Part shown: positions 26,079 through 64,000 of the stretch, in pieces
How positions within the stretch are numbered: position 1 is the first letter of the stretch
Layout of the letters: each line of letters opens with the position of its first letter
NCBI RefSeq assembly: GCF_900167435.1
Contig: NZ_FUWS01000009.1
Span: 124,001-188,000, forward strand
DNA length: 64,000 nt
Reading direction: 5' to 3'
Source of the DNA: Marinactinospora thermotolerans DSM 45154
GTDB taxonomy: Bacteria > Actinomycetota > Actinomycetes > Streptosporangiales > Streptosporangiaceae
The notes under the pieces: model-generated
Seen by the model: the letters and a program-made list of their open reading frames with translations, nothing else
Databases searched by the model: none
Told to the model about the DNA's origin: nothing
Program-made: the position numbers and the translations under genes

Positions 26079-26088
26079 GGGAGAAACC

Positions 26089-26174
26089 GACAGGGGAGCG
26101 CTTTGGCGCTGAGAGTGCGGGGCAGCCCGCAGACCCTTACACACCTGATCTGGGTCATGCCAGCGAAGGAAGTC
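26089..26174 (+). ncRNA. TPP (thiamine pyrophosphate) riboswitch
   Basis: The conserved THI-box elements are in order: GGGGAGC, GGCGCTGAGAGT (26106 on), the sensor helix CGGGGCAGCCCG, GACCCTTACACACCTGATCTGGGT, and TGCCAGCGAAGGAAGTC. Downstream, CGTGGG...CCCACG (26173-26218) could be part of the expression platform; no T-run is seen, so translational control of ykoE is more likely than termination. Confidence 0.93.
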
Positions 26175-26297
26175 GTGGGAACCGCCGACCGGCCGTCACA
26201 CCCCACGCGCCGGTCCGCGTAGGACCTGCGCCGCACGGGTGGCCGGCGGCGCTCTTGGCCTGGGCCCTCTCGCTCTTCTCCACGCGAAGGGACACCC

Positions 26298-55106: not shown

Positions 55107-55113
55107 TGTCACC

Positions 55114-55164
55114 GTGCAGAGCAACCCGATGATTCTCGTACTTGGCCAGCGCGCAGCAAGCTGA
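55114..55164 (+). CDS. ilvB attenuator leader peptide
   Basis: GTG opens a 16-residue peptide, VQSNPMILVLGQRAAS, with consecutive Ile-Leu-Val-Leu codons as sensors of branched-chain aminoacyl-tRNA. The ILVLG core resembles the leader known before ilvB in Streptomyces (from memory). Its GTG lies 7 nt after the -10, so it is translated from the RNA 5' end. The codons ATT CTC GTA CTT are, for this GC-rich genome, partly rare (ATT, GTA, CTT), which would sharpen pausing. Confidence 0.8.
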   Translation: MQSNPMILVLGQRAAS

Positions 55165-55220
55165 CCAAGCTCTCGTTGCGCGCTCCCCTCAACCGCGTCC
55201 TCGGCGGTGGGGGGTTTTTT
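55148..55220 (+). promoter_or_regulatory. ilvB transcription attenuator
   Basis: An early stem AGCGCGCA (55148-55155)/TGCGCGCT (55177-55184) overlaps the end of the leader peptide. The terminator stem CCCTCAACCGC (55186-55196)/GCGGTGGGGGG (55204-55214) is followed by six T (55215-55220), a rare true intrinsic terminator in this genome. Confidence 0.78.
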
Positions 55221-55260
55221 GTTGCCAGACACACCTACAGCCCTCTCGAAGGATCTAGTG

Positions 55261-62300: not shown

Positions 62301-63425
62301 ATGAACACCAGCACCACCACAAGCGGGTTGACGTTCGACATCCGGCTCTCGTCCCAGCGGAAGACCCCGCAGGAACGGGCGGCCCTGCTGGAGAACCCCG
62401 GGTTCGGCAACGTGTTCACCGACCACATGGTCACGATCCGCTACAGCGACGAGAAGGGGTGGTACGACGCCCGACTCGAGCCCTACGGTCCGATCCCGCT
62501 CGACCCGGCCACCGCGGCGCTGCACTACGCCCAGGAGATCTTCGAAGGGCTCAAGGCCTACCGCCACCCGGACGGCACCATCGCCTCCTTCCGCCCCGAG
62601 GCCAACGCCGAACGCCTCAACCGCAGCGCCCGGCGTATGGCGATGCCCGAGCTTCCCGAGGACCTGTTCCTCGGCGCGATCGAGACGCTGCTCGCCCACG
62701 ACGGCGACTGGGTGCCGACCAAGGAGGACAACAGCCTCTACCTGCGCCCGTTCATGTTCGCCACCGACGTCGGCCTGGGGGTCAACCACCCCTCGACCTC
62801 CTACCTGTTCGTCCTCATCGCCTCCCCGTCGGGCTCCTACTTCTCCGGCGGGATCAAGCCGGTCACGGTCTGGCTGAGCGAGGACTACACCCGTGCCGCG
62901 CCGGGCGGTACCGGCGAGGCCAAGTTCGCCGGCAACTACGCCGCGAGCTTCCTGGCCCAGGCCCAGGCGGTCGAGAAGGGGTGTGACCAGGTCGTCTGGC
63001 TCGACGCGGTGGAGCACCGATGGGTCGAGGAGATGGGGGGCATGAACCTGTTCTTCGTCTTCGGCTCGGGCGAGCAGGCCCGGATCCTCACGCCCGCGCT
63101 CACCGGCACGCTGCTGCCGGGGATCACCCGCGACTCGCTGCTCAGGCTCGCGCCCGAGCTCGGCATCCCCGCCGAGGAGGGACGTATCTCCACCGACGAA
63201 TGGCGCGCGGCGGCGCTCAGCGGCGAGCTCACCGAGGTGTTCGCCTGTGGCACCGCGGCCGTCATCACCCCCGTCGCGCACGTCAAGAGCGCCGATGGGG
63301 ACTTCCAGGTCGGTGACGGCAAGCCGGGGCCGGTCACCCTGCGGCTGCGCGAGGAGCTGGTCGGCCTCCAGTACGGCCTGCGCCCCGACAGCCATGGCTG
63401 GGTCCGCCGCTTCGGAGCGGTCTGA
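62301..63425 (+). CDS. ilvE: Branched-chain amino acid aminotransferase IlvE
   Basis: The 374-residue class IV PLP enzyme performs the last transamination to Val, Leu and Ile. PLP Lys in [16 protein letters not shown], then [12 protein letters not shown] and the late [12 protein letters not shown] loop identify the long-form (about 360 residue) [18 protein letters not shown] is the conserved N-terminal segment. ATG 62301 has AGAGGA 10 nt upstream; the frame opens earlier at 62265 without conserved sequence. Confidence 0.96.
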
Positions 63426-63477: not shown

Positions 63478-63526
63478 ATCGAGACCGAATCGCGGATCCC
63501 CTCGGCGTCGTGCGAGGTGGATGTGG

Positions 63527-63532
63527 CAGACT
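63527..63532 (+). promoter_or_regulatory. -10 of the cimA leader
   Basis: CAGACT, preceded by TGG, lies 7 nt before the leader peptide ATG at 63540. Confidence 0.45.
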
Positions 63533-63539
63533 GGTCCCC

Positions 63540-63581
63540 ATGTCGTCTCGGGCGATCATTATCGTGAGGCGCGTCGGCTGA
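63540..63581 (+). CDS. cimA attenuator leader peptide
   Basis: ATG opens a 13-residue peptide, MSSRAIIIVRRVG, with three consecutive Ile codons and a Val. It sits where a leaderless transcript would start and is followed by a terminator with a T-run, the layout of an amino-acid attenuator. Ile/Val content fits control of isoleucine-pathway citramalate synthase. Confidence 0.78.
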   Translation: MSSRAIIIVRRVG

Positions 63582-63633
63582 TCACGGACCCCGCCGGCGC
63601 GCCGACCTCTCGTGTCCACGAGGGGTCTTTTTT
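63573..63633 (+). promoter_or_regulatory. cimA transcription attenuator
   Basis: Terminator: GACCTCTCGT (63604-63613)/ACGAGGGGTC (63618-63627) plus six T (63628-63633). Alternative stem: GTCGGC (63573-63578) in the end of the leader peptide pairs with GCCGAC (63601-63606), overlapping the terminator arm, so a stalled ribosome could free or block it. Confidence 0.75.
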
Positions 63634-63680
63634 GTTGGGCCGGCGGCCCGAACCAACATCCACCCCCGGGAGTTCCACCC

Positions 63681-64000
63681 ATGCTGGACGACGGTTTCCA
63701 CGTATTCGACACGACCCTGCGCGACGGTGCGCAACGAGAGGGAATCAACCTCACCGTCGCCGACAAACTGGCGATCGCGCGGCTGCTCGACGAGTTCGGC
63801 GTGGGCTTCATCGAGGGCGGCTGGCCCGGCGCCAACCCCAAGGACACCGAGTTCTTCCAACGGGCGCGCGACGAGCTGGAACTGAGGCACGCACGCCTCA
63901 CCGCCTTCGGCTCCACCCGGCGGGCGGGGGTCCGCGCCGCCGAGGACCCGCAGGTCGCCGCCCTGCGCGACTGCGGCGCCCCGGTGGTCACACTCGTCGC
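63681..64000 (+). CDS. cimA: Citramalate synthase CimA (partial, N-terminal part)
   Basis: The first 106 residues are visible before the right edge. They start [25 protein letters not shown], the HMGL-like DTTLRDGxQ motif in the spacing of the citramalate synthase/alpha-isopropylmalate synthase family; [25 protein letters not shown] favours CimA over LeuA (GGWPG and PKD are typical of CimA). Such enzymes condense pyruvate with acetyl-CoA to bypass threonine in isoleucine synthesis. GGGAG precedes ATG 63681, 48 nt after the attenuator T-run. Confidence 0.88.

Follow-up and report, generated by a model that had tools for sequence, protein, structure and literature searches.

A leader region in front of cimA

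The window, a stretch of 64,000 nt, ends within the 5′ part of a gene that we identified as cimA: its full ORF (L001:3682–5265, 527 aa) scored 635 bits against TIGR00977 (citramalate synthase; cut-off 450). CimA performs the committed step of the citramalate (threonine-independent) route to isoleucine. Because nothing in this genome exceeded the cut-off of TIGR01127, the sole ilvA (threonine ammonia-lyase) model used (best score 247.5 bits vs. 378.75), the citramalate route may be its main isoleucine entry. Upstream, ilvE ends at 63425, 114 nt before a short ORF. The features discussed here are as follows.

63524–63532, forward strand: extended −10-like promoter element TGG-CAGACT, 7 nt 5′ of the leader start codon (read from the letters and from the motif in relatives)
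63540–63581, forward strand: leader ORF MSSRAIIIVRRVG, ATG at 63540, 13 codons, stop UGA at 63579–63581 (sequence reading)
63555–63563, forward strand: three Ile codons, the putative sensor, the first 13 nt 5′ of stem A (shuffled control)
63568–63603, forward strand: stem A, 11 bp, 63568–63578 paired with 63593–63603 (folding and covariation in relatives)
63586–63592, forward strand: GGACCCC in the stem A loop, a possible antiterminator strand (GGAC enriched in the window's family set)
63604–63633, forward strand: intrinsic terminator, hairpin 63604–63613/63618–63627 plus six T at 63628–63633 (reading, folding and covariation)
63681–64000, forward strand: 5′ part of cimA, ATG at 63681, the gene extending past the window end to L001:5265
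55113–55222, forward strand: sibling attenuator of ilvB, its Ile-Leu-Val-Leu codons followed by a stem A and a terminator (second-best covariance-model match in the genome)

The leader ORF reads Ile-Ile-Ile-Val at 63555–63566 and contains the 5′ arm of stem A. The GGACCCC strand lies 7 nt 3′ of the first base of the stop codon, and the terminator ends 47 nt short of the cimA start. An earlier first-pass annotation of this DNA had described a 13-codon Ile-Ile-Ile-Val leader and a terminator with six T preceding cimA, all of which we recovered. It had also called the stems mutually exclusive, a description that we do not uphold: stem A and the terminator share no base and are thus adjacent hairpins, and pairing of the tested leader stretches with a terminator arm did not exceed mispaired controls. 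Both hairpins stand side by side in the minimum-energy RNA of 63540–63640 (−45.4 kcal/mol, z of −2.16, six of 200 shuffles as good). The locus combines a biosynthetic gene, a short ORF upstream of it that contains codons for the amino acid under control, and an intrinsic terminator between the two. Scanned with Rfam at gathering scores, the window gave a single match, a TPP riboswitch (26082–26188).

Conservation upstream of cimA

We collected 110 loci, of which 30 were the best matches of a 200-genome family sample and 80 were named (Thermobifida, Nocardiopsis, Streptomonospora, Murinocardiopsis, Streptomyces, and others). A pattern search found a terminator of the window's type in all 106 unique upstream regions from these loci. 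A further 80 regions came from class and family samples; 79 of them precede cimA, and the remaining one (L115) precedes a divergent paralogue. A two-hairpin finder accepted stem A together with a GC-rich hairpin and T-run in 170 of 186 upstream regions. Among the 16 that it rejected, three visibly carry the element (L041, L118, and L166, two of them also matched by the covariance model, in genomes G215 and G227), one is the paralogue, and 12 show no element; neither the finder nor the covariance model detected an element before cimA in L121, L122–L126, L142, L146, L148–L150, and L155. One region (L132), in which the finder had picked an incorrect stem A and which has no leader, was excluded from the alignment and from the 65-locus controls described below.

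An alignment of 49 diverse elements (A1) was used to build a covariance model, R1. Within the genome of the window, R1 found the cimA leader (E 1.5e-25, its own sequence being among the 49) and the ilvB leader (E 4.5e-7), with no other match below 0.07. The class sample comprised 148 genomes, 120 of them with cimA (two of these as broken or fragmentary matches only). R1 matched 18–224 nt upstream of cimA in at least 85 of these 120 genomes, a lower bound because the match list reached only E 3.6e-10. The positive genomes represent 24 of the 28 sampled cimA-bearing families of the class; the short ORF and stems, whose loss in relatives would have spoken against the first-pass reading, are conserved in them, together with the Ile codons and the spacing. 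The model had been fed by 38 of the 85 positive genomes and not by the other 47. In the Streptomyces family (f15), all 13 genomes carried the element and none had been used for the model.

The remaining 35 of the 120 genomes had no R1 match before cimA among the matches listed (down to E 3.6e-10). On the same list, the element was not found in four families (f14, 0/14; f19, 0/13; f7 and f28, 0/1 each) and was missing from some genomes of three others (four of 12 in f20, one of five in f27, and one of two in f32). In f19, cimA lies almost directly 3′ of ilvE (L148–L150). Several of the f14 cimA upstream regions (L122–L126), inspected by eye, share a block around GGCGGCGAACCCGTC and CGGGCGCGTG and have no T-run. 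Beyond the class, a phylum sample with 218 cimA-bearing genomes (202 of them from outside the class) yielded at least four genomes with an R1 match directly before cimA among the matches listed, all with Ile-rich leaders (L228–L231). The element is rarer before cimA outside the class than inside.

Covariation of the two stems

Covariation across relatives, the check that the first-pass annotation had proposed, is evident in A1. Double changes occurred in 93 cells, a count reached by none of 500 shuffles (shuffled mean 28.9), and standard pairs filled 92.7% of cells compared with 85.5% after shuffling. When partners were slid, pairing fell to only 40%–52%. In one of the five measures the separation was smaller: pairs changed on both sides numbered 11 of 20 (six of 10 in stem A and five of 10 in the terminator), compared with a shuffled mean of 8.3, which 30 of 500 shuffles reached. 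Since the sequences are related, these shuffle counts are not probabilities. RNAalifold, run on A1 without a given structure, returned 12 pairs in the same two stems, five of them with double changes. The four foot pairs of stem A (GCGC/GCGC) are invariant in A1.

Isoleucine codons at a nearly fixed distance, and a promoter-like motif

In 169 of 170 elements, an ORF places one or more Ile codons within the 30 nt 5′ of stem A, and in 163 of these 169 leaders the first Ile codon lay 10–14 nt before the stem. The leader stop codon fell between 5 nt before and 23 nt behind the first base of stem A. Because the ORF picked was the one richest in Ile, we reran the identical procedure on shuffled upstream stretches (75 nt, 200 shuffles). 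Two or more Ile codons by stem A were present at 62 of 65 non-redundant loci, compared with a shuffled mean of 1.1 (maximum 4), and a first Ile codon at −14 to −10 at 59 of 65, compared with 1.4 (maximum 6). As picked, the leaders are 7–28 codons long. In some Streptomyces the frame shifts 3′ of the Ile codons (MIIGSRRAGPQ vs. MIIGSSAPVRSDH) while the RNA stem is kept; what is conserved is thus the Ile codons and the RNA, and not the peptide.

A second recurrent feature is the motif TGN-[CT]ANNNT, which stands 6–10 nt (mostly 6–7 nt) before an in-frame start codon in 55 of the 65 non-redundant leaders (shuffled mean 0.94, maximum 4). As judged from this motif, transcription would be expected to start at the leader start codon, giving a leaderless mRNA. 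For the Streptomyces lividans ilvB leader peptide gene ilvL, the transcription start has been placed at the start codon (PMC8079986).

Could the hairpins be only the transcription terminator of ilvE, with the small ORF incidental? An intergenic terminator is expected where ilvE ends 114 nt before the ORF, as it does in the window. However, 57 of the 109 loci with enough upstream DNA have no ilvE within 1 kb upstream of cimA, and the terminator is nonetheless present in every one of the 106 unique upstream regions of those loci. The fixed distance of the Ile codons and the promoter-like motif would also be left unexplained. We rejected this candidate on the 57 loci without ilvE and consider the explanation improbable.

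Equally little weight goes to the possibility that a translated leader controls cimA otherwise than by intrinsic termination, for example through ribosome re-initiation at cimA or through Rho. Its attraction comes from the ilvB leader of Streptomyces coelicolor, where codon substitutions are described as having no effect and so as not acting in the way classical attenuation predicts (PMC1262725). Against it stand the GC-rich hairpin and T-run, which occur together with stem A in the 170 upstream regions accepted by the finder, and the 47 nt that separate the terminator from cimA in the window.

The same chassis before other genes

Although trained on cimA leaders, R1 also matched leaders of ilvB, leuS, leuA, and ilvA. 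In these leaders stem A abuts the terminator and the sensor codons lie just before stem A, and a single model covers the set. Downstream genes were named by BLAST against the IlvB and CimA of the genome of the window, by NCBIfam (one leuS, leuA, and ilvB each, and two ilvA fragments), and otherwise by inspection of translations. Among the ilvB leaders with this chassis are the one in the window and several from elsewhere in the phylum, in classes other than that of the window.

We tallied branched-chain codons 4–18 nt before stem A with a picker that favored these codons as a group; L217, L224, and L227 have no row in the tallies, and the rows of the misassigned L222, L236, and L254 are still in them. 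The counts were Leu 22, Val 24, and Ile 14 for ilvB within the class; Leu 17, Val 13, and Ile 9 for ilvB in other classes; Leu 22, Val 2, and Ile 1 for eight leuS leaders; Leu 3 for the one leuA (family f10); Ile 9, Leu 5, and Val 2 for ilvA (f14); and Ile 15 and Leu 1 for cimA outside the class. The 169 cimA leaders gave Ile 372, Val 69, and Leu 55, a tally that leans to Ile because the ORF had been picked for Ile. The leader codons follow the pathway of the downstream gene, as expected for sensing by aminoacyl-tRNA.

Family f14, where no cimA has the element, is the family where an ilvA-like gene has it. All 10 elements fetched (L247–L256, from 10 of the 14 f14 genomes) precede a threonine ammonia-lyase-like gene, and these ilvA-type leaders have a single Ile codon near the stem (L254 read by eye). 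The position of the Ile sensor, shifted in f14 from cimA to ilvA, suggests which isoleucine entry route a lineage controls.

Two single loci are recorded here in their own right. At L238 (f10), leuA has this chassis in place of the LEU element described for it, and the leader reads Leu-Leu-Leu-Thr-stop. At L266/L232 (contig C6 of genome G270), no recognizable co-directed gene lies just 3′ of an element that has a terminator and whose leader reads Ile-Ile-Ile-stop; this is perhaps an orphan copy.

The swap of sensor codons with the downstream gene bears on two further explanations. Direct sensing of a ligand or of uncharged tRNA by the RNA, as in a riboswitch or T-box, would account for the presence of a conserved stem and a terminator upstream of a gene of amino acid metabolism and would make the ORF incidental. 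We rejected membership in a known Rfam RNA family, as none matched the element at gathering score and none matched the loci of ten relatives up to E 0.5. The conserved stems are moreover short, the loops differ between families, and neither the in-frame Ile codons nor their swap with the gene would be explained, so that direct sensing appears less likely still than the two explanations weighed above. That the ORF, which does recur in position, encodes a small functional protein with its own terminator is hardly credible, given its range of 7–28 codons, the change of its codons with the downstream gene, and the Streptomyces frame shifts that alter the peptide after the Ile codons and keep the RNA stem.

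A proposed model for attenuation of cimA

We consider it likely, from the anatomy, conservation, and covariation of the element, its fixed codon-to-stem distance, and the agreement of leader codons with the downstream gene, that it is a leader-peptide (ribosome-mediated) transcription attenuator of cimA that responds to Ile-tRNA charging. It probably turns cimA off when isoleucine is plentiful. In the model that we propose, the mRNA would start at the leader ORF, probably leaderless, and a ribosome would translate it behind RNA polymerase. With ample Ile-tRNA, the ribosome would reach the UGA and mask stem A along its 5′ arm and in its loop; with stem A covered, the terminator at 63604–63633 would fold and transcription would end before cimA. 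With charged Ile-tRNA in short supply, the ribosome would pause when the first Ile codon occupies the A site. Its leading edge, ∼12 nt further on, would then end at the base of stem A, so that stem A could fold with its loop free.

The conserved codon-to-stem distance is compatible with these predicted ribosome positions. If a ribosome covers ∼12 nt of mRNA forward from the A-site codon, one at the first Ile codon would leave stem A just free, and one that had advanced to a later codon or to the stop would not. A conserved Ile-tRNA-responsive switch on cimA would, if true, be a control point of which we found no description in the literature searched.

How a folded stem A might prevent termination

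Folded stem A would probably block the terminator, and we see two ways in which it could do so, singly or together. Its loop GGACCCC might capture the 3′ shoulder GGGGUCU in an H-type pseudoknot, and/or the rigid stem A, abutting the base of the terminator, might be unable to enter the polymerase exit channel with it.

In the window, the duplex of GGACCCC (63586–63592) with GGGGUCU (63622–63628) has a computed energy of −12.0 kcal/mol, compared with −12.5 kcal/mol for the terminator hairpin minus its first pair. This pairing would exclude the terminator; it would stand immediately next to the 3′ arm of stem A, the arrangement of an H-type pseudoknot. Of the 56 elements in the window's family set, 52 contain GGAC within stem A, compared with 11.3 expected by shuffling. 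In 47 of these 52 it lies 3–10 nt 3′ of the first stop-codon base, regardless of the reading frame, and would thus be under a ribosome resting at the stop. Elsewhere GGAC was present in 36 of 75 Streptomyces-type loci, which have much longer loops, and in two of 39 others. A possible alternative partner of GGAC, in a kissing interaction, is the GUCC loop of the terminator, which is invariant in all 32 aligned members of the window's family; against this, one of the 32 (L175) has no GGAC, and loops ending in CC are common in other families that lack GGAC. Covariation supports neither the GGACCCC:GGGGUCU nor the GGAC:GUCC pairing. A decoy role of the loop, as a GGACCCC pseudoknot confined to the window's family, is possible.

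An overlapping antiterminator of the classical kind was sought at 65 loci and not found: the 12 or 45 nt before stem A, either of its arms, and its loop paired with the tested terminator arms no better than in mispaired loci, a comparison in which the two arms of stem A, serving as the positive control, gave 8.6 vs. 6.4. As mispairing is blind to a pairing kept by every locus, we also compared loops with dinucleotide shuffles. Loop-to-shoulder pairing then showed a weak excess (mean z of −0.33, SE 0.14, 48 loci), but when all loci, including those with short loops, were counted, an average fraction of 0.55 of the shuffles did as well or better. By these two tests, a base-paired antiterminator common to the class was not found.

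The two hairpins are closely spaced. The linker between stem A and the terminator core is 3 nt in 44 of the 49 elements of A1, 2 nt in four, and 5 nt in one. Linker nucleotides can often pair with the leading U residues, which leaves none to spare between the abutting helices in 150 of 170 elements. Exclusion of the terminator by an abutting hairpin is a candidate mechanism, and among the proposals it alone would apply to the class as a whole.

More tentatively, and with more doubt than confidence, we suggest that this arrangement could be a phylum-wide actinobacterial chassis of two hairpins without spare nucleotides. The first would act as an antiterminator through steric exclusion at the polymerase exit channel, having no base in common with the terminator, and a loop pseudoknot would strengthen the effect in some families. 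Only the sensor codons would be swapped, so that control of cimA, ilvA, ilvB, leuA, or leuS would be by Ile, by Leu, or mixed, with the Ile sensor on cimA in most sampled families and on ilvA in the large family whose cimA is without it. Such an antitermination geometry is possibly new.

Comparison with known systems

In attenuation of the Escherichia coli ilvGMEDA/trp type, ribosome stalling at cognate codons decides whether the terminator forms, and the antiterminator overlaps the terminator stem. The cimA element differs in that its main upstream stem abuts the terminator with no overlap. In open-licence PubMed Central text, we found no description of a cimA attenuator and no paper on ilvA attenuation in Actinobacteria.

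The closest relatives of the element are actinobacterial. The 2005 survey of this phylum described ilvB leaders with terminators, classical Streptomyces leuS attenuators, and the LEU element of leuA, and in its passages on other amino acid pathway genes reported no conserved structures before them (Seliverstov et al. 2005; PMC1262725). A transcriptome survey of S. lividans lists eight leader peptides in its section on them, none for cimA (PMC8079986), although the Streptomyces loci that we sampled carry the cimA element.

The ilvB leader (ilvL; in S. lividans MRTRILVLGKRVG) (PMC8079986) resembles the cimA element in being a leaderless short ORF with branched-chain codons followed by a terminator; R1 finds both, and both lie in the window. 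The ilvB leader has Ile, Leu, and Val codons, whereas those of the cimA leader are mainly Ile. Compared by its description, the Corynebacterium ilvB-II motif has its ORF in a first stem, P1, with the terminator stem, P2, behind it, and was OFF in rich medium in a Bacillus subtilis reporter; one codon change in the C. ulcerans leader is described as without effect (PMC10272879). The antiterminator proposed for it, between the P1 loop and the 3′ shoulder of the terminator, resembles the GGACCCC:GGGGUCU pairing suggested for the cimA element. Unlike the latter, ilvB-II is a genus-specific ilvB motif with 15–17-residue branched-chain amino acid peptides, and the main text of its description does not mention cimA (PMC10272879).

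The Streptomyces leuS attenuators share with the cimA element a short leader (LLL), two hairpins, and a terminator (PMC1262725; LeuL2 in PMC8079986), but they have Leu codons, precede a tRNA-ligase gene, and are described as classical with an antiterminator (PMC1262725). The LEU element of leuA is a pseudoknot whose base stem pairs Leu codons with the Shine–Dalgarno box; its description in the survey includes no terminator, whereas the cimA element has one (PMC1262725).

Our best reading is that the cimA element is a new addition to the known actinobacterial ilvB and leuS attenuators. For the ilvB leaders, the 2005 survey's account left the mode of regulation unclear and found other attenuator parts missing in several of them (PMC1262725). 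The conserved stem A, which abuts the terminator and lies at a fixed distance from the sensor codons, offers a testable candidate for that missing part.
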